64,000 nt of DNA from Kineococcus xinjiangensis (GCF_002934625.1 NZ_PTJD01000016.1:1-64000); one strand, 5' to 3'; positions 1,522 to 12,487 are shown, counted from the first letter of the stretch. Notes: a model not told the origin generated them from the sequence alone. A program made the numbers and translations.

Positions 1522-2013
1522 ATGGGACTCGCCGAGGTCTCCGGGATCCTCTGGAAGGAGCGGGAGCTGATGGAGCTGCTCCTGTTCAAGCTGGAGGAGG
1601 AGCAGCTGGTGCTGGCGAGCGGCCGCACCCGCTGGCTGGCGCACGCCACCCGCGAGGTCGAGTTCGTGCTGGAGCAGATCCGCTCCACGGAGCTCCTGCG
1701 CGCCATGGAGGTGGACGGGGTGGCCGCCGAGCTGGGCCTGTCCCCCTCCCCCAGCCTCAAGGCGCTCATCGACGCCGCCCCCGAGCCGTGGGGGGAGCTG
1801 ATGCGCGGGCACCGCGACGCCTTCCTCGCCCTCACGACCGAGATCCAGAACCTCGCGGAGGCCAACCGCGACCTGCTGAACTCCGGCGCCCGCGCGGTCC
1901 GCGAGACCCTCCTGGGCCTCGACCAGACCCTGGACACCTACACCGCCCACGGCAGGAACCGAGTCGCCGCCACCGGCGGGTCGCGCGCCCACTTCGTCGA
2001 CGAAGCCTTCTGA
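1522..2013 (+). CDS. flgN: FlgN-like flagellar export chaperone
   Basis: A 163-aa mostly helical protein starting MGLAEVSGILWKERELMELL, with long amphipathic heptads (LLLFKLEEEQLVLASGRTRWLAHATREVEFVLEQI) typical of FlgN. FlgN binds the hook-filament junction proteins FlgK and FlgL in the cytoplasm and delivers them to the export gate. Those two genes follow directly (16-bp gap to flgK), the classic gene order. A GGGAGACGGAAGG stretch precedes the ATG. FlgN proteins are poorly conserved, so the call rests on length, helical pattern and position. Confidence 0.75.
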   Translation: MGLAEVSGILWKERELMELLLFKLEEEQLVLASGRTRWLAHATREVEFVLEQIRSTELLRAMEVDGVAAELGLSPSPSLKALIDAAPEPWGELMRGHRDAFLALTTEIQNLAEANRDLLNSGARAVRETLLGLDQTLDTYTAHGRNRVAATGGSRAHFVDEAF

Positions 2014-2029
2014 GACAGGACCCGAGGAC

Positions 2030-3418
2030 ATGAGCACCTTCTCCGGCATCAACCTCAGCTCCAGGGCGCTGGCCGCCGCGCAGCGCAACATGGACGTGAC
2101 CGGCCAGAACATCGCCAACGCCAACACCCAGGGCTACACCCGTCAGCGGGTCGAGCAGGTGTCCACCGTCGCGGCGCAGGGCACCTGGGCCCGCAAGGAC
2201 GTCGCCGGCACCGGCGTCGAGGTCACCGGCATCACCCGCATCGCCGACGCCCTGCTGGACGCCACGATGCGCGCCGACACCGCCGCCTCCGCCGAGCAGC
2301 AGGCCACCGCGAGGATCTGGAACCAGATCGAGGCGTCCCTCGGGGAGCCCAGCGCCACCGGCCTGAGCACCCAGCTCGCCGCCATGCACAGCTCCTGGGC
2401 GAACCTGGGCCGCACCGAGGGCACCGAGGCCGCCGCCACGGCGCGCGCCGACGTCCTCGCCCGCAGCAAGGCCGTCGTGGACACCCTCGCCACCCTCGAC
2501 GCCCACCTCGCGTCCCAGTGGTCCGCCGCGGACCGCCAGCTCGACGTCCTCGTCGAGCAGGCCAACTCCACCGCCGCCCAGGTCGCAGGCCTCAACGAGG
2601 CCATCCTCAAGGCCAACGCCACCGGCACCTCGCCCAACGAGCTCATCGACCACCGCGAGCAGGCCCTCAGCCGCCTCGCCGAGCTCACCGGCGCACGCGT
2701 CACCACCCGCGAGAACGGCATGGTCGACGTCCACGTCGGCAACGCCGCCATCGTCACCGGCATCAGCGCCGAGAAGCTCTCCGTCTCCCGCGCCGCCCTC
2801 GCCGACATCAAGCACGACGGCGCCGTGACGTCGCTGAGGATCGGCCAGACCGGCGTCCTGCCCGTCTCCGGCAGCCTCCGCGCCACCGTCGACGCCGTGA
2901 ACACCACCATCCCCCGGGCCGCCCTGGATCTGGACGCGACGGCCCGGAGGATCGGCGCGAGCGTCAACGCGGTCTACAACCCCGGGGGCACCGCGGCCCT
3001 GGACTTCTTCGCGATGCCCATCAGCGGCCGGGACTACGCCCGCGGGATGGTCGTGCGCCCGGACGTCACCACGACGAACTTCACCGACCGCTCCGACGCG
3101 ACCACTGTCGACCGGGACATCGCCCGCAGGATCGGCAACCTCGTCAGCGCCGAGGGCGGCCCCACCGCCACCTGGCGCGCGCACGTGACGAACGTCGCCT
3201 CGAAGGTCCAGAGCGCCGAGGTCCGCGCGGAGGTCGCCGGCCAGACCGCGATGAAGTCCGCCGCCGCCCGCGACTCCGTCTCCGGGGTGAGCATCGACGA
3301 GGAGATGACGAACCTCGTGGCGTACCAGCACGCCTACAACGCCGCCGCGCGCGTGCTGACGACGATCGACCAGGCCCTCGACACCCTCATCAACCGCACC
3401 GGCCTCGTCGGGCGCTGA
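2030..3418 (+). CDS. flgK: Flagellar hook-associated protein FlgK
   Basis: A 462-aa hook-filament junction protein (HAP1). The N-terminus has the axial-protein signature (MSTFSGINLSSRALAAAQ, then DVTGQNIANANTQGYTRQR). The C-terminus has the matching coiled-coil segment (SIDEEMTNLVAYQHAYNAAARVLTTIDQALDTLI). FlgK is exported and forms the first junction ring between hook and filament. Length is at the short end for the family. It lies between flgN and flgL in one transcription unit, with a CCGAGGAC ribosome-binding site. Confidence 0.95.
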   Translation: MSTFSGINLSSRALAAAQRNMDVTGQNIANANTQGYTRQRVEQVSTVAAQGTWARKDVAGTGVEVTGITRIADALLDATMRADTAASAEQQATARIWNQIEASLGEPSATGLSTQLAAMHSSWANLGRTEGTEAAATARADVLARSKAVVDTLATLDAHLASQWSAADRQLDVLVEQANSTAAQVAGLNEAILKANATGTSPNELIDHREQALSRLAELTGARVTTRENGMVDVHVGNAAIVTGISAEKLSVSRAALADIKHDGAVTSLRIGQTGVLPVSGSLRATVDAVNTTIPRAALDLDATARRIGASVNAVYNPGGTAALDFFAMPISGRDYARGMVVRPDVTTTNFTDRSDATTVDRDIARRIGNLVSAEGGPTATWRAHVTNVASKVQSAEVRAEVAGQTAMKSAAARDSVSGVSIDEEMTNLVAYQHAYNAAARVLTTIDQALDTLINRTGLVGR

Positions 3419-3458
3419 CGCAGGCACCGTCTGAACATCCGCCCCAGGAGGCAACAGA

Positions 3459-4370
3459 ATGCTCGGCCGCATCACCCACCGCACCACCGCCGCGACGTCC
3501 CTGGCGAACCTGCAGGCCAACCAGCTGCGCCAGTCGAAGCTGCAGGAGCAGCTCACCAGCGGGAAGTCGATCAGCAAGGCGTCGGACAACCCCGCCGCCG
3601 CGGCCGAGGCGCTGCGGCACCGCTCCGACATCGCGGCGAACGAGCAGTACGCCCGCAACATCACCGACGGCCGGATGCTGCTGGACGTCCAGGAGGGTGT
3701 GCTCGACTCGGCGCTCAAGGGGCTGCAGAAGGTCAAGGCCCTCGCGGTCCAGGGCGCCAGCACCGGCAACAACGACGCCGCCGCCCGCGAGGCCATCGCC
3801 AAGCAGGTCGACGCGATCCGCGAGGAGCTGCTGGGCGCCGCGAACACCAAGCACCTCGGCCGCGCCGTCTTCGGCGGCAACGCGGACATCACGGCCGCCT
3901 ACGAGGCCGACGGCACCTACAACGGCAACAGCGCCAGCATCAAGCGCAGCGCGGCCCCCGGCGTCGACGTGGACATCAACATCCCCGGTGCCTCCGCCTT
4001 CGGCACCGGTACCACCGCCGCCCCGCCGACGGCAGCCGACAACACCTTCAAGGCGCTCGAGGACCTGTCCGCAGCACTGCGCTCCGGCACCGGCGCGACG
4101 ATTACGGCTTCCCTGGGTAATGTCGAGCTGGGGCTGGATCGCATCACCGGCGCACTGGCCTCCATCGGTGCACGGGGCAACCAGCTCGCAGCACTGCAGG
4201 ACACGACGGAGGCGAGGGGCGACTACCTCAGCAACGCGCTCGAAGAGGTGGAGGGCGTCGACATCGCGAAGGCGATGGTGGAGTTCAACCTGCAGAACAC
4301 GGCCTACCAGGCCGCTCTGGCCGCTACTGCCAAGGTCATCCAGCCGACTCTCCTGGACTTCCTACGATGA
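3459..4370 (+). CDS. flgL: Flagellar hook-associated protein FlgL
   Basis: A 303-aa protein of the flagellin superfamily. The N-terminal D0/D1 helices carry RITHRTTAATSLANLQANQLRQSKLQEQLTSGKSI-type residues and the C-terminal helices end in AMVEFNLQNTAYQAALAATAKVIQPTLLDFL. FlgL (HAP3) is the second junction ring on which the filament assembles. A strong AGGAGG site lies 7 nt before the ATG. Its stop overlaps ATGA at 4367, so the next gene is likely translationally coupled. Confidence 0.93.
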   Translation: MLGRITHRTTAATSLANLQANQLRQSKLQEQLTSGKSISKASDNPAAAAEALRHRSDIAANEQYARNITDGRMLLDVQEGVLDSALKGLQKVKALAVQGASTGNNDAAAREAIAKQVDAIREELLGAANTKHLGRAVFGGNADITAAYEADGTYNGNSASIKRSAAPGVDVDINIPGASAFGTGTTAAPPTAADNTFKALEDLSAALRSGTGATITASLGNVELGLDRITGALASIGARGNQLAALQDTTEARGDYLSNALEEVEGVDIAKAMVEFNLQNTAYQAALAATAKVIQPTLLDFLR

Positions 4371-4384
4371 GGGGATTTCACAAG

Positions 4385-4792
4385 GTGGCTACTACGACCG
4401 AGACTGATGCCATGCCGAAGATCGAGTTCGTCGCACCCATGATGGGCCTCCCGGACCACACGAAGTACGACCTCCAGCCGCTGGACGACAACGGGATCTT
4501 GTTCTCCCTGCGGTGCGAGGAAGACCCGGACCTGAGGCTCATCCTGGCGGACCCGATGTCGTTCTACCCGGACTACGAGCCGGTCATCGACCGCGAGATG
4601 GCCGACTCCCTCGGACTGGACACGGAGGAGGACGCTGCTGTCCTCGCCGTGGTCAACCCGGGGCAGAAGCTCGAGGAGGCCACCATCAACCTGATGGCGC
4701 CCGTGGTGCTGAACCACAAGTCCCACCGCGCGGCGCAGGCCGTCCTGACGGGCAGCGACTTCCCGCTGCGCGCGCCGCTCATGCACGACTGA
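4385..4792 (+). CDS. fliW: Flagellar assembly factor FliW
   Basis: A FliW-family protein (135 aa from this start) with the family features [35 protein letters not shown] and a C-terminal [20 protein letters not shown] block. FliW binds flagellin and, where CsrA is present, antagonises CsrA repression of flagellin mRNA. Three starts are possible: ATG 4367 (overlapping the flgL stop), GTG 4385 (GAGGGG site 10 nt upstream, chosen), and ATG 4412 (MPKIEFV, closest to the family's usual N-terminus). No csrA gene follows; a strong terminator does. Confidence 0.88.
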
Positions 4793-6647: not shown

Positions 6648-7487
6648 TCACCTCCGCAGCGCCCACATCGCCACCGCGCTCGCCGCCGCCACGTTGAGGC
6701 TGTCCACGCCCGCGGCCATCGGGATGCGCACCACCACGTCCGCCGCCGCCACCGCGCGCCGGCTCAGCCCGTCGCCCTCCGTGCCCAGCAGCAGCGCCAC
6801 CCGCTCGGGTGGGCGGAAGTCCTCCAGCGGCACCGCGTCGTCCGTCAGCGCCAGCGCCACCACCGTGAAGCCCGCCTCCCGCAGCAGGTCCAGGTCCTGC
6901 GGCCAGCGCCCCGCCCGCGCCCACGGCAGGTGCAGGGACGTCCCCATGCTCACGCGCACGCTGCGCCGGTAGAGCGGGTCCGCGCAGCGCGGGCTGACCA
7001 GCACCCCGTCCGCCCCCAGCGCCGCCGCCGAGCGGAACACCGCACCGACGTTGGTGTGGTCGACGACGTCCTCCAGCACCACCAGCCGCCGCGCCCCCGG
7101 CAGCAGGTCCGCGGTGCCGCGCTCGGCGGGGCGGTGCATCGACGCCAGCGCGCCCCGGTGCAGGTCCACGCCCGTCAGCCGCTCGAACGCCCCCGGTGGC
7201 GCCACGAACACCGGCACGTCGCCCGGCAGCACGTCGGCCAGCTCGTCGGCGCGCGGCTGCGACAGCAGGAACGAGCGCGGCCGGTGCCCCGCGGCCAGGG
7301 CCCGGCGGATCACCTCCACCCCCTCGGCGAGGAACAGGCCCTCCGCGGGCTCCCGCGCGGCGCGCAGCTGCACGTCCTTGAGGCTGAGGTAGTCGCGCAG
7401 CCACGGCCGCAGCTCCGCCGGCAGGGCGGTGAGCTGCCGGTCCGCGGGGTCGAGGGCGGCGAGCTCGGGCAGGGGACGCAGCAGCAC
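6648..7487 (-). CDS. TrmH/SpoU family RNA 2'-O-methyltransferase
   Basis: A 279-aa protein. An N-terminal substrate-binding region (LSLKDVQLRAAREPAEGLFLAEGVEVIRRAL) is followed by the SPOUT knot: motif 1 VVDHTNVGAVFRSAAALGADG, motif 2 LLLGTEGDGLSR and motif 3 IPMAAGVDSLNVAAASAVA. SpoU enzymes methylate ribose 2'-OH groups in tRNA or rRNA using S-adenosylmethionine. Which nucleotide is modified cannot be told. The GTG start at 7487 (VLLRPLPELAALDP) is chosen because further upstream the frame runs into repeat-derived low-complexity sequence. Confidence 0.88.
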   Translation of the reverse strand: MLLRPLPELAALDPADRQLTALPAELRPWLRDYLSLKDVQLRAAREPAEGLFLAEGVEVIRRALAAGHRPRSFLLSQPRADELADVLPGDVPVFVAPPGAFERLTGVDLHRGALASMHRPAERGTADLLPGARRLVVLEDVVDHTNVGAVFRSAAALGADGVLVSPRCADPLYRRSVRVSMGTSLHLPWARAGRWPQDLDLLREAGFTVVALALTDDAVPLEDFRPPERVALLLGTEGDGLSRRAVAAADVVVRIPMAAGVDSLNVAAASAVAMWALRR

Positions 7488-7551
7488 GCCGGGACGGTAG
7501 CGCGGGGCGGGGCGACGCCCGGCGCGGGTGCGGCCGCTCGGGGCTGCGGGA

Positions 7552-7602
7552 CGGGGACGTTCGGCAGGCGACACACCGGCGAGTCCCCGCGCAACGTCCC
7601 CG
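7552..7602. repeat. 51-bp interspersed palindromic repeat, copy A
   Basis: Exactly 51 bp, bounded by the perfect 10-bp inverted repeat CGGGGACGTT ... AACGTCCCCG. It lies in the divergent gap between the TrmH-type gene and the MFS gene. It differs from copy B at only 2 positions. Copies C (8958) and D (10980) share length and ends but have a different core. Confidence 0.8.
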
Positions 7603-7625
7603 CGCCGCCAGTGCCGGCCGCGAGG

Positions 7626-7676
7626 CGGGGACGCTCGGCAGGCGGCACACCGGCGAGTCCCCGCGCAACGTCCCCG
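7626..7676. repeat. 51-bp interspersed palindromic repeat, copy B
   Basis: Same orientation as copy A and 23 bp away from it. The left end CGGGGACGCT carries one change, and the right end AACGTCCCCG is perfect. The near identity with A suggests a recent local duplication or ongoing conversion. Confidence 0.8.
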
Positions 7677-7743
7677 CGCCGGGCGTCGCCCCGCCATGGG
7701 GGCGGCCGCGCAAGCTCCCCGCGCCGGCCGGGAGGATGCCGTG

Positions 7744-8943
7744 GTGACCGGCACCGCACCTCCCGCCCGCACCTCCGCGTGGCGCACCGTCGTCGGGTTC
7801 GGGACCGTCAGCCTCGCCGCGGACATGGTCTACGAGGGCGCCCGGTCGGTGTACGGGCCGCTGCTGGCCGGGCTCGGCGCGTCCGCGCTCGTCGTCGGCC
7901 TCGTCACCGGCGCCGGAGAGGCCGTCGCGCTGCTGGTGCGGCTGGTGTCCGGGCCGCTGGCCGACCGCAGCGGCCGCTACTGGGCGCTGACGATCAGCGG
8001 GTACGCGCTGACCGCGGTGTGCGTGCCCCTGCTGGCCGTCACTCCCCTGCTCGGGGGCGCGGGGCTGGCGGTGGCGGCCGGTCTGATCCTCGCCGAGCGC
8101 CTCGGCAAGGCCGTGCGCAGCCCCGCGAAGTCGGCACTGCTGGCGGACGCCGCCGCGCACGTCGGCATGGGCCGCGGGATGGGTGTGCACAAGGCGCTGG
8201 ACCAGGTGGGTGCCTTCGCCGGGCCGCTGCTGGTGGCGGGGATCGCCGCGGCCGCCGCCGGGGCCCTGGAGCCGGGGCTGGCCGCGCTCGCGGTGCCGGG
8301 TGCCGCGGCGATGGTGCTCCTGCTGCTGCTCCGGGCACGCTCCGGCGCGGCACGGGAACCTGGGCGGCGCACCAGCTCGGGCACGGCGGCGGGTCCGCTG
8401 CCGAGGTTGTTCTGGCGCACTGCCGTCGGCAGCGGCCTCTGCACGGCGGGGCTGGTGACGTTCGGCCTCGTCGGGTTCCACCTCGTCGAGGCCGAACTCG
8501 TCGCCACGCCGGTCGTGCCGCTGCTGTACGCCGCGGCGATGGGCGCCGCCGCGCTCGCCGCCCTGGGCACCGGCGTCCTCTACGACCGGATCGGGCCCCG
8601 GGTGCTGCTCGTGCTGCCCGTGCTGGTGGCAGCGGTGCCCGGGCTGGTGTTCGCCACCTCGCTGCCGGCGGTCGTGGCGGGGGTGCTGGTGTGGGGCGCG
8701 GCGGGCGGGGTGCAGGACTCGACCGTGAAGGCGCTCGTCGCCGACGTCGTGCCGCGCGAGCGCCGGGCCACCGCGTTCGGCTGGTTCGCCGGGGTGCAGG
8801 GCGCGGGGGCGCTGGCCGGTGGGGCGGGCGCGGGCTGGCTGTACGGGGTGTCGCTGCCCGCGCTCGTGGTGGCCGTGCTGGTGGTGCAGCTGGTGGCGCT
8901 GGTGCTGCTGCTGCCCGTGGTGCTGCGGGCGGCGCCGCGCTGA
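7744..8943 (+). CDS. MFS transporter
   Basis: A 399-aa integral membrane protein with about 12 hydrophobic segments. Major facilitator signatures are present: the loop-2 motif SGPLADRSGRYWALTISGYALTAV (G-x3-D-R-x-GR) and a related VLYDRIGPRVLL in the second half. The AAHVGMGRGMGVHKALDQVGAFAGPLL region resembles multidrug or sugar-type exporters of the family. The substrate is unknown. The start is GTG 7744, 8 nt after GGAGG; GTG 7741 is equally in frame. It is flanked by 51-bp repeats on both sides. Confidence 0.82.
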   Translation: MTGTAPPARTSAWRTVVGFGTVSLAADMVYEGARSVYGPLLAGLGASALVVGLVTGAGEAVALLVRLVSGPLADRSGRYWALTISGYALTAVCVPLLAVTPLLGGAGLAVAAGLILAERLGKAVRSPAKSALLADAAAHVGMGRGMGVHKALDQVGAFAGPLLVAGIAAAAAGALEPGLAALAVPGAAAMVLLLLLRARSGAAREPGRRTSSGTAAGPLPRLFWRTAVGSGLCTAGLVTFGLVGFHLVEAELVATPVVPLLYAAAMGAAALAALGTGVLYDRIGPRVLLVLPVLVAAVPGLVFATSLPAVVAGVLVWGAAGGVQDSTVKALVADVVPRERRATAFGWFAGVQGAGALAGGAGAGWLYGVSLPALVVAVLVVQLVALVLLLPVVLRAAPR

Positions 8944-8957
8944 ACCCGTGGCCGTCG

Positions 8958-9008
8958 CGGGGACGTTCCACAGGCGGCGCGCGGGCGTGTCGCGGCCGAA
9001 CGTCCCCG
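8958..9008. repeat. 51-bp interspersed palindromic repeat, copy C
   Basis: Exactly 51 bp with intact CGGGGACGTT / AACGTCCCCG ends. It lies between the convergent MFS and AraC genes. The core (GCGCGGGCG-GTCGCGGCCG) belongs to the second subtype, shared with copy D. A further half-palindrome (CCGTCCCCGCG) follows at about 9040. Confidence 0.78.
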
Positions 9009-9070
9009 CGCCGGCACAAGCTGGGCCGCGTCGGCCGCACCGTCCCCGCGCCAGCACCCGCCGGGTGGCG

Positions 9071-10006
9071 TCAGCCCCGCAGCGCCCGGTGCTCGGCGGG
9101 CCGCACCCCGCGCACCCGCAGGAACGCGCTCGACAGCGCGAAGCCGCTGCCGTAGCCGACGCGCCGCGCGACCGCGTCCAGCGTGCTGCCCGGCTCCAGC
9201 AGCAGGTCCGCCGCCAGGGCCAGCCGCCAGTCGGTGAGGAACGCCATCGGCGGCTCCCCCACCACGTCGCTGAACCGCCGCGCGAGCGCCGCCCGGGAGG
9301 CCCCCACCTCCGCCGCCAGCGACGCCACCGTCCACGGCCGCTCCGGGAACTCCTGCAGCAGCCGCAGCGCCGGCCCTGCGACGGGGTCGGAGTGCGCGCG
9401 GTACCACCCCGGGGCGCCCGCCTCCGCGCGGGCGAACCAGCACCGGAGCACCGCGACGAGCAGCAGGTCGAGGAGCCGGTCGAGGACGGCGCCCTGGCCG
9501 GGCTCGTCCGTGTCCACCTCGGCGGCGAGGTAGCTCAGCAGCGGGGCGCCGACGTCGCAGCCGGGCACGGTGAGCAGGGGCGGCAGCGCCCGCAGCAGCC
9601 GGCCGCTGACCTCGCCCGCGTCGGGGTAGGTACCGGTGAGCAGGACGGTGCTGCCCTCGCCGCTGTTGCCCCAGGTCCGGGGTCCCCACGCGGTCATCGG
9701 GTGGACGCTCGCCCCGCCGGCCGCCCGGCACGCCTGGTCGGGGCCGATGACGACCTGCGGGGCGGTGCGGGGATCGTCGGCGACGAGGTAGGGCTCCGGC
9801 CCGCGCAGGACGCAGACGTCGCCCGCGGCGAGCCGTTCCACCGCACCGTCGCCGGTCACGACGCACGCGGCGCCGCGCACCACCGCCACGACGGTCAGCG
9901 GTGCGCCGTCCTCCACACGCAGCGCCCACGGCGGATCCAGCCGCGAGCGCAGCACGAACGCGCCGCGCGCCCGCGGGCCCTCCAGGAGTGCGGCCAGGGC
10001 GTCCAC
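9071..10006 (-). CDS. AraC family transcriptional regulator (cupin_6 N-domain)
   Basis: A 311-aa protein. The N-terminal cupin-like sensor domain (residues about 1-180) shows LRSRLDPPWALRVEDGAPLTVVAVVRG and LAAGDVCVLRGPEPYLVADD. The C-terminal double helix-turn-helix of the AraC type (about 210-310) includes WTVASLAAEVGASRAALARRF, LTDWRLALAADLL and VARRVGYGSGFALSSAFLRVRGVRPAEHR. GTG start. It is divergent from an NmrA-like oxidoreductase across an 80-bp gap, an arrangement typical of a regulator that controls its neighbour. The inducer is unknown. Confidence 0.9.
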   Translation of the reverse strand: MDALAALLEGPRARGAFVLRSRLDPPWALRVEDGAPLTVVAVVRGAACVVTGDGAVERLAAGDVCVLRGPEPYLVADDPRTAPQVVIGPDQACRAAGGASVHPMTAWGPRTWGNSGEGSTVLLTGTYPDAGEVSGRLLRALPPLLTVPGCDVGAPLLSYLAAEVDTDEPGQGAVLDRLLDLLLVAVLRCWFARAEAGAPGWYRAHSDPVAGPALRLLQEFPERPWTVASLAAEVGASRAALARRFSDVVGEPPMAFLTDWRLALAADLLLEPGSTLDAVARRVGYGSGFALSSAFLRVRGVRPAEHRALRG

Positions 10007-10086
10007 GAGGGCAGCGTAGACGCACGCGTATGGAAACGAGCTGTTCGACGATGGAGCGTCCAGGTCCGGCGCGGTTGCATCGGGGC

Positions 10087-10950
10087 ATGACCACTCTCCA
10101 CGTCACCGACGAGTCCACCACCACCCCGCCGCCCGCGGGCACCGTCCTCGTGACCGGCGCCACCGGCAAGACCGGCCGTCGCGTCGCCGAGGGCCTGCGC
10201 GCTCTCGGCGTGGCAGTCCGCGCGGCCTCGCGCGCCGGCGCCCCGTCCTTCGACTGGAACGTCCCCGACAGCTGGAACGCCGCGCTCGACGGGGCCGGCG
10301 CCGCCTACGTCTGCTACTCCCCCGACCTCGCCGTGCCGGGGGCGCCCGAGGTCGTCGCCGGGTTCGCGCGCCACGCCACCGAGGCGGGCCTGAGCCGGCT
10401 CGTGCTGCTGTCGGGGCGCGGGGAGGCGGAGGCGCAGCGCGCGGAGGCCGCGGTGCGGGCGGAGTTCCCCGCGGCGACCGTCGTGCGCGCCGCCTGGTTC
10501 AGCCAGAACTTCTCGGAGAGCTTCTTCGCCGACGCGATCCGCGAGGGGACCGTCGCCACCCCGAGCGGAGACGTCCCCGAGCCGTTCGTGGACGTCCGCG
10601 ACATCGCCGACGTGGCGGTCGCCGCCCTCACCGCGCCCGGGCACGAGGGCCGGGTGCACGAGGTGACCGGCCCGGAGCTGCTGACCCTGCGGGAGGCGGT
10701 CGGTCTGGTCGCGGCGGCGACCGGGCGCGACGTGCGCTTCGTGGGGCTCACGCCCGCCGAGCACCGCGACGGGCTCGCGGCGGCGGGCGTCGACCCGGGG
10801 ATGGCGGCCCTGCTGGACCACCTGTTCACCCAGGTGCTCGACGGGCGCAACGCCTCGACGACCCCCGACGTGGAGCGGGTGCTCGGCCGCCCGGCGCGCC
10901 GGTTCGCCGACTACGTGCGGGAGGCGGCCGCCACGGGCGCCTGGGGCTGA
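10087..10950 (+). CDS. NAD(P)-binding NmrA-type oxidoreductase
   Basis: A 287-aa atypical short-chain dehydrogenase. The Rossmann motif is VLVTGATGKTGRRVAEGLR (GxTGxxG). There is no YxxxK catalytic pair, and the substrate region AAWFSQNFSESFFADAIREG matches NmrA/azoreductase-like members such as QOR2. These proteins act as NAD(P)H-dependent reductases or redox sensors. It is divergent from the AraC regulator, probably its target. Confidence 0.8.
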   Translation: MTTLHVTDESTTTPPPAGTVLVTGATGKTGRRVAEGLRALGVAVRAASRAGAPSFDWNVPDSWNAALDGAGAAYVCYSPDLAVPGAPEVVAGFARHATEAGLSRLVLLSGRGEAEAQRAEAAVRAEFPAATVVRAAWFSQNFSESFFADAIREGTVATPSGDVPEPFVDVRDIADVAVAALTAPGHEGRVHEVTGPELLTLREAVGLVAAATGRDVRFVGLTPAEHRDGLAAAGVDPGMAALLDHLFTQVLDGRNASTTPDVERVLGRPARRFADYVREAAATGAWG

Positions 10951-10979
10951 CCGCGACGCCGGGGCGGGCCGAGCCGACG

Positions 10980-11030
10980 CGGGGACGTTCGGCAGGCGAC
11001 GCGCGGGTGGGTCGCGGCCGGACGTCCCCG
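10980..11030. repeat. 51-bp interspersed palindromic repeat, copy D
   Basis: Exactly 51 bp, ends CGGGGACGTT / GACGTCCCCG. It lies between the convergent NmrA-like and gabT genes and is followed within 25 bp by another GGCCGGACGTCCCCG half-site. The core is the same subtype as copy C. Confidence 0.78.
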
Positions 11031-11107
11031 CCCCAGCACTGGCCGGACGTCCCCGCCGCGGGCGGGCGAGCGTCAGAACACGCCCCTCCAGGGGACGCGC
11101 CCAGGGC

Positions 11108-12487
11108 TCAGCCGAGGGAGGCGAAGGCGTCGGCGAGGACGTCCATCGCCTCGGCGAGCAGGTCCTCCCCCATCACCAGCGGCGGCAGGAAGCGCAGCAC
11201 GTTGCCGTAGGTGCCCGCGGTGAGGGTGAGCACCCCCGCCGCGTGGCAGGCGGCGTTGACGGCGGCGGTGGCGGCCGGGTCCGGCTCCAGGGTGCCCGGC
11301 CGCACCAGCTCGACGGCCACCATGGCACCGCGGCCGCGGACGTCGCCGATGACGGGGTGCTGCTCGGCGAGCCGGCGCAGCCGCGGCAGCATCACGTCGC
11401 CGAGCGCGCGGGCGCGGGCACTGAGGTCGCCCTCCTCCACCGCGCGGATCGCGGCCAGCGCCGCCGCGCACGCCACGGGGTTGCCCGCGTAGGTGCCGCC
11501 GAGGCCGCCGGCGTGCACGGAGTCCATGATCTCGGCGCGGCCGGTGACGGCGGAGAGCGGCATGCCCCCGGCGATGCCCTTCGCGGTGGTGATGAGGTCC
11601 GGCACGACGCCCTCGTGCTCGCAGGCGAAGACGTCGCCGGTGCGGGCGAAACCCGTCTGGATCTCGTCGGCGACGAAGACGATGCCGCGGGCGCGGGCGA
11701 ACTCCGCGAGGGCGGGCAGGAACCCGGGCGCGGGGACGACGAAGCCGCCCTCGCCCTGGACGGGTTCGACGACGATCGCGGCGACGCCGCCCGCGCCGAT
11801 CTCCTTCTCGATCCGGGTGATGGCCTCGGCAGCGACGGCCTCCCCGCTGCGGCCGCCGTCGCGGAACGGGTAGGACATCGGCATCCGGTACACCTCGGGG
11901 GCGAACGGGCCGAAGGAGTGCTTGTAGGGCATGGACTTCGCCGTCAGCGCCATCGTCAGGTTCGTGCGCCCGTGGTAGGCGTGCTCGAACACCACGACCG
12001 CCTGCCGCCCCGTCGCGGCGCGGGCGATCTTCACGGCGTTCTCCACGGCCTCCGCGCCGGAGTTGAAGAGCACCGAGCGCTTCTCGTGGTCGCCGGGCGT
12101 CAGCCGGTTCAGCGCCTCGCACACCGCGACGTACTGCTCGTAGGGGCTGACGGTGAAACAGGTGTGGGTGAACTCGGCGACCTGCTCGCGGACCGCCTCG
12201 ACGACGCCCGGCGCGGAGTTGCCGACGTTGACGACGGCGATGCCCGCCCCGAGGTCGATCAGGGAGTTGCCGTCGACGTCGACGACCACCCCGCCCCCGG
12301 CGGCGGCCACGTAGACCGGCAGGGCGCTGGAGCAGCCCGCCGCCACCGCGGCCAGCCGGCGGGCGTGCAGCTCCTGCGAGCGCGGGCCGGGGATCGCCGT
12401 GACCAGGCGCCGCTCCTGCGGCAGGCCCGGTCCCCCGGCGCGCCCGCTGGGCGTGAGGTTCGGAGGAGCTGCGGGGTGAGCGGTCAC
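11108..12487 (-). CDS. gabT: 4-aminobutyrate--2-oxoglutarate transaminase
   Basis: A 459-aa class III PLP aminotransferase of full length. Visible motifs are LFNSGAEAVENAVKIAR (cofactor phosphate site), FEHAYHGRTNLTMALTAK, ADEIQTGFARTGDVFACEHE (Asp for the pyridine nitrogen) and LITTAKGIAGGMPLSAV with the Schiff-base lysine at residue 303. It converts GABA and 2-oxoglutarate to succinate semialdehyde and glutamate. The actinobacterial GabT N-terminus (LPQERRLVTAIPGPRSQELHARR) is present. GTG start. No gabD or permease is adjacent. Confidence 0.9.
   Translation of the reverse strand: MTAHPAAPPNLTPSGRAGGPGLPQERRLVTAIPGPRSQELHARRLAAVAAGCSSALPVYVAAAGGGVVVDVDGNSLIDLGAGIAVVNVGNSAPGVVEAVREQVAEFTHTCFTVSPYEQYVAVCEALNRLTPGDHEKRSVLFNSGAEAVENAVKIARAATGRQAVVVFEHAYHGRTNLTMALTAKSMPYKHSFGPFAPEVYRMPMSYPFRDGGRSGEAVAAEAITRIEKEIGAGGVAAIVVEPVQGEGGFVVPAPGFLPALAEFARARGIVFVADEIQTGFARTGDVFACEHEGVVPDLITTAKGIAGGMPLSAVTGRAEIMDSVHAGGLGGTYAGNPVACAAALAAIRAVEEGDLSARARALGDVMLPRLRRLAEQHPVIGDVRGRGAMVAVELVRPGTLEPDPAATAAVNAACHAAGVLTLTAGTYGNVLRFLPPLVMGEDLLAEAMDVLADAFASLG

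Follow-up and report, generated by a model that had tools for sequence, protein, structure and literature searches.

The stretch of DNA analysed here, referred to as the window, comprises 64,000 nucleotides from Kineococcus xinjiangensis. It includes genes for a SpoU-family rRNA methylase, an MFS transporter, an AraC-type regulator, an NmrA-like protein and a class-III aminotransferase, and the gaps between these genes carry four copies (A to D) of a palindromic repeat as well as additional partial arms (Table 1). GC content, gene content and kinship tables all point to an actinobacterial host. Elsewhere in the window, at 1522-4792, the starts of the encoded proteins resemble, by eye, those of flagellar FlgK, FlgL and FliW.

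Table 1. Repeat copies, partial arms and neighbouring genes, with positions as in the window
Feature	Position	Strand	Remarks
SpoU-family rRNA methylase	6648..7487	-	left neighbour of A/B; start predicted
Repeat copy A	7550..7604	+	51-bp core 7552-7602; 49-nt GGGG..CCCC 7553-7601; first dimer unit, divergent gap
Linker between A and B	7602..7626	.	25 nt; period 74
Repeat copy B	7624..7678	+	core 7626-7676; second dimer unit; 47/49 identical to A
MFS transporter	7741..8943	+	between A/B and C; start predicted
Repeat copy C	8956..9010	+	core 8958-9008; convergent gap; MFS stop 15 nt upstream
Solitary extra arm CGTCCCC	9041..9047	+	40 nt outside copy C
AraC-type regulator (Cupin_6 + HTH_18)	9071..10006	-	right neighbour of C
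NmrA-like protein	10087..10950	+	left neighbour of D
Repeat copy D	10978..11032	+	core 10980-11030; convergent gap; NmrA-like gene stop 30 nt upstream
Half-element GGCCGGACGTCCCCGCC	11041..11057	+	repeats 17 bp of D's right arm in direct orientation, offset 25 bp
Class-III aminotransferase	11108..12346	-	right neighbour of D; start predicted

The four copies had been described in a sequence-only reading as 51-bp units restricted to gaps and falling into two core subtypes, and all of this is borne out: each copy lies where it had been placed, all four are intergenic, and A/B (49/51 identical) and C/D (45/51) are clearly separated from one another (39-41/51 across subtypes). The 10-bp inverted ends CGGGGACGTT/AACGTCCCCG that had been ascribed to every copy are exact in A (7552) and C (8958) and not in B and D, where one arm base differs in each, copy B starting with CGGGGACGCT and copy D ending with GGACGTCCCCG. 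Similarly, placement between convergent genes holds for C and D, and the A/B dimer lies in a divergent gap, between the methylase gene (-) and the MFS gene (+). The pattern found in the window is not due to chance, with 0 matches over 100 shuffles.

A genome-wide family of fixed length

All analysis of the Kineococcus genome concerns one genome and is based on the stretches around the copies. In the first genome search the arms were fixed (the right arm one base shorter) and a middle of 25-35 nt was left free, which gave 49 forward matches genome-wide, all of them 49 nt long, and 0 when the pattern was reversed; a second search, of fixed length and tolerating 3 mismatches at most, had 72 forward and 3 control matches. 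A covariance model returned 135 strand matches among the best 150 candidates scored, and since only these were scored, degenerate copies may be missed. Altogether, 66 copies were located at about 44 sites in the stretches fetched around the matches, and the family is therefore not the local duplication that the four copies of the window might have represented. The distance from GGGG to CCCC is exactly 49 nt in 64 of the 66 copies (50 in one, 51 in one), and the full unit measures 55 bp, most copies in the genome having 12-nt palindromic ends GGCGGGGACGTT/AACGTCCCCGCC. That the arms are invariant is in part a matter of ascertainment, because they belonged to the search pattern; conservation extends to GC at alignment positions 15-16 and 40-41, which lay outside that pattern.

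Predicted RNA folding of the repeat copies is strong (mean minimum free energy -43.5, against -22.0 for random 55-mers). The 2-nt position beside the arms is often mismatched, and pairing beyond the arms, at alignment positions 13/43 and 14/42, does not exceed expectation. Little compensation was found between the left and right halves of the core, as the minimum free energies of real and chimeric copies did not differ significantly (p=0.16; core only, p=0.07), and compensatory co-evolution of the two was dropped as an explanation. One sequence on contig C8 at about 125592 (L201:2987-3054) combines the family core with the arms GGTGACGTCC/GGACGTCACC, in which two arm changes are each compensated on the opposite side.

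The covariance model yielded no clear copy in 11 genomes of the same family, with one marginal match (E=0.002, in G002), and the exact pattern had no match outside its own genome in a sample of about 394 genomes of the same class; the expansion is therefore lineage-specific and probably recent. In agreement with the earlier statement that no named family is known, Rfam gives no match above threshold for the region. A plasmid or phage origin was considered and dropped, as blastn gave no match; in viral contigs matches to the arms are present, among which none of this family's type was recognised by eye.

Arrays, insertion and the search for an enzyme

Together, the 64 copies of fixed length make up 42 arrays, of which 24 are single, 15 double, 2 triple and 1 quadruple; among the 18 with more than one copy, orientation is uniform in 17. 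The 22 linkers are of nearly constant length (15 of 24 nt, 5 of 25 nt, one each of 26 and 28 nt). Cores are much more alike within arrays than between them (median identity 30/31 and 22/31, respectively), and the linkers are unrelated between loci and mostly unlike the outer flanks of their own array. Exceptions with repeated linkers are found in the C6, C8 and C1:277k arrays, which points to later duplication of a 73-77-bp unit. Copying of linkers from other loci was rejected, as a linker is shared only by two C8 arrays 3 kb apart (L202; C8:209963 and 212999), which have about 141 bp including the linker in common and lie in unrelated flanks, and in which a dimer was apparently copied over a short distance.

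Solitary extra arms cluster 22-26 nt outside the elements (binomial probability about 1e-6, a rough figure). Half-elements with one such arm occur at 11016-11057 of the window, in the right flank of L203, and at L179, L196 and L187; each is separated from a complete element by about 22-26 nt, mostly in the same-arm orientation, and their position does not match that of a neighbouring unit at the usual spacing, whether direct or inverted.

Identity between copies from different contigs reaches 54/55, with linkers and flanks that are unrelated. One copy (C15:109199; covariance model E=1.4e-5) is located inside an open reading frame of 545 amino acids (L211:2321-3958, minus strand; contig C15:108523-110157), whose product is membrane-protein-like and has no Pfam match. 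Homologues of this protein, from the same family and a few others, match it as two pieces that are adjacent in the subjects, the break falling near residues 295-307 and 333-344. The in-frame insert of 34 amino acids that carries the repeat is missing from all aligned homologues that span the site (11 from the same family, one of them cut by a contig end), so that at the protein level these homologues present the empty site. Because the insert, at about 102 bp, exceeds the 55-bp repeat and this single copy is degenerate, it does not define the exact mobile unit. No excess of direct flanking repeats, as expected of a target-site duplication, was detected at the offsets tested, and in this respect the family departs from a classical MITE, which combines terminal inverted repeats with such a duplication.

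The sequence-only reading had raised mobilisation by a RAYT-type transposase, which the search for the corresponding domain speaks against. Y1_Tnp (PF01797) has 0 matches in the genome itself, with 5 of 14 control genomes positive, and it occurs in 0 of 12 family genomes (its own and the 11 others); because the draft consists of 42 contigs (100% completeness), there is a small chance that a Y1 gene lies in an unassembled part.

Location downstream of genes and a putative role in termination

Genes around the repeats were called with a home-made caller based on codon usage, and other gaps of 75-1200 nt near the repeats served as comparison. Among 43 repeat-bearing gaps, 20 are convergent, 18 lie between genes of the same direction and 5 are divergent; the corresponding numbers for 87 other gaps are 9, 46 and 32 (Fisher test, convergent excess p=8.5e-6, divergent deficit p=0.003). 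The distance from stop codon to repeat start is mostly 6-85 nt. This bias could also reflect the avoidance of genes and promoters. Once the repeat is subtracted, the median length of convergent gaps is 54 in repeat-bearing and 47 in repeat-free ones.

Repeat-free convergent gaps frequently contain strong hairpins that are unrelated in sequence. With coding segments of the same length as reference, 62% of these gaps contain a hairpin at p<=0.05, compared with 6% of the flanks left over beside the repeats (Fisher p=3e-6), which suggests that the repeat occupies the place of the ordinary hairpin. At single copies, locus-specific complementary flanks are found just beyond the arms (mean run 2.38, against 1.30 +/- 0.18 in shuffles; 0/500 shuffles), as if they served to lengthen the predicted stem; arrays are without this extension. 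That the repeat inserted centrally into ordinary long hairpins is not favoured, because the flank complementarity, where present, amounts to 4-7 nt, compared with at least 14 pairs in ordinary hairpins.

Just after the stop codons of convergent genes, the repeat thus provides a stable hairpin on both strands, as is expected of a bidirectional terminator. The alternative role proposed earlier, that of bidirectional terminators, is consequently supported in an indirect manner, by position, by hairpin replacement and by stem extension, and the copies may well act in this way. A U-tract is absent from the repeat. In Streptomyces clavuligerus, U-less GC-rich hairpins (the HS-U-lack class) are located at transcript 3' ends (PMC8269248), and the missing U-tract is therefore not decisive. 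With such U-less (I-shaped) terminators of GC-rich Actinomycetota (PMC8269248) the repeats share a stable GC hairpin just past stop codons and the lack of a U-tract; they differ in being copies of one element, whereas the ordinary hairpins of this genome are unrelated in sequence.

Relation to known repeats and competing explanations

Work on small palindromic repeats has gone furthest in Proteobacteria, where RAYT enzymes accompany them. The Kineococcus repeats constitute a well-defined palindrome family in a high-GC actinobacterium without RAYT; their length is exact, the register of their dimers is fixed and one insertion into a gene is visible. This makes it possible to test by what route orphan REP-like repeats spread and whether such repeats are put to use as terminators by genomes. 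REPINs are characterized by conserved ends, perfectly conserved spacing, a hairpin spacer and tandem clusters (PMC3116915). The Kineococcus family likewise has inverted ends that do not vary, keep a conserved distance and enclose a less conserved, hairpin-forming middle; it is also dispersed between genes, clustered in tandem and biased towards convergent gaps and 3' ends, as are the RAYT-associated GTAG REPs of Pseudomonas (PMC3116915, PMC3733652); evidence of insertion comes from the single 34-amino-acid in-frame case. In contrast to these systems, the GTAG/GTGG tag is missing (the flank consensus is GGC/GCC), genome and family contain no RAYT (Y1) gene, clusters are head-to-tail with mostly unique linkers of 24-25 nt, and the repeat is confined to one genome among those searched. 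The earlier designation as REP-like therefore holds for architecture, 3'-end location and one in-gene insertion, but for want of both enzyme and tag the family does not belong to the RAYT/GTAG REPs. CGTC REPs, which have no dedicated transposase, consist of 8-9-bp stems with 4-5-nt loops in head-to-head dimers, and Actinomycetota are absent from the phyla listed for them (PMC3733652). They share with the Kineococcus repeats the palindromic structure, the intergenic 3' bias and the lack of a dedicated transposase, and the Kineococcus arms contain CGTC; here, however, CGTC is paired inside the arm and is not an unpaired terminal tag, which argues against membership.

Observed directly are the family itself, its length and register, its location bias, one insertion into a gene and convergent gaps in which the repeat stands without another hairpin. 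We consider it somewhat probable that they reflect an orphan, lineage-specific REPIN-like family which was dispersed by insertion and co-opted as bidirectional terminators, the moving enzyme and the termination being what we infer. The element would be defined by two inverted ends that hardly vary, GGCGGGGACGTT/AACGTCCCCGCC, at a fixed 49-nt distance on either side of a variable hairpin core. It would have been dispersed by insertion, possibly via a single-stranded hairpin route and by a Y1/HUH-type enzyme since lost from the genome, and then have formed local head-to-tail dimers and arrays at the 73-74-bp register. The positions at which it is tolerated or kept would mainly be those after stop codons, where it could fold into a hairpin from either strand and act as a bidirectional transcription terminator or mRNA 3' end. 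In an unlikely variant of this scheme, a non-Y1 enzyme with a built-in ruler spreads the family by placing a second copy 24-25 bp away in unrelated sequence (a 73-74-bp period, about 7 helical turns), and the host uses the product as portable bidirectional terminators.

The same distribution would arise, as a possible though doubtful reading, from REP-like repeats that are purely selfish, serve no role in the cell and accumulate after stop codons because selection purges insertions in genes and promoters. The lineage-specific occurrence, the in-gene insertion and the convergent and 3'-end bias of REPs elsewhere (PMC3733652) are in line with this, as are the residual convergent gaps, whose near-normal length looks as if the repeat had merely been added; neutral inserts, however, would be expected neither to lie in gaps devoid of the usual hairpin nor to acquire locus-specific stem extensions. 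Another explanation takes the repeats for ordinary terminator hairpins that never moved and owe their likeness to gene conversion or to selection acting convergently. Terminators are indeed common in this genome, as the unrelated hairpins of other convergent gaps indicate, members of one array are near-identical, and the variant on contig C8, with its related core and two compensated changes in the arms, fits as well; yet units of exactly 49 nt that are near-identical at unrelated sites and missing from relatives, together with the insertion seen at the protein level, render this explanation quite unlikely.

Two further explanations take the regular spacing as their starting point. The repeats might bind a chromosome-organising or regulatory protein, with the 73-74-bp period (about 7 helical turns) setting dimers on one face of the DNA; a dimer spacing of 24-25 nt, seen in all but two of the 22 linkers, and arms conserved by sequence rather than covariation agree with this, but we regard it as very improbable given the post-stop location, the scarcity in promoter gaps, the predominance of single copies and the share of ascertainment in arm invariance. 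Near-identical direct repeats with unrelated linkers of constant length also recall a CRISPR-like or integron-like array with unique spacers, a reading to which we attach next to no likelihood, as single copies account for 24 of 42 sites and several arrays carry identical linkers, that is, duplicated units. A CRISPR array proper is further disfavoured by the search for Cas1 (PF01867; 0 matches in the genome, 9 of 14 controls positive).

For the preferred reading of an orphan REPIN-like family, palindromes associated with Y1 genes in other bacteria provide a lead. Some terminal repeats of the Y1 genes termed TIRYT share GGGGWSAS (Di Nocera et al., PMC3733652), and GGGGACGTT/AACGTCCCC form the ends of palindromes, 43-55 nt long, that are present, among the matches listed, in Clostridia, Olsenella, Omnitrophota, Acidobacteria and others, some of them by chance. 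Y1 genes are present in 10 of 10 tested genomes that carry GGGGACGTT palindromes, and several have GGGGACGTT or GGGGACGGTT as inverted ends on their flanks. The Kineococcus repeat differs in that it starts with GGGGACGT, which fits GGGGWS and not the following AS, in that the outer complementary flank frequent in those palindromes is missing, and in the lack of a Y1 gene. The family may thus be an orphaned relative of the Y1-associated palindromes, a kinship that stays at the level of a lead because the lookalikes were selected by a shared 9-mer. Y1 genes with inverted GGGGACGGTTC or GGGGACGCACC ends were also observed at L218, L225, L232, L234 (Syntrophomonas MAG) and L226 (Olsenella), and several end variants of the inverted repeats flanking Y1 genes can occur inside one genome.
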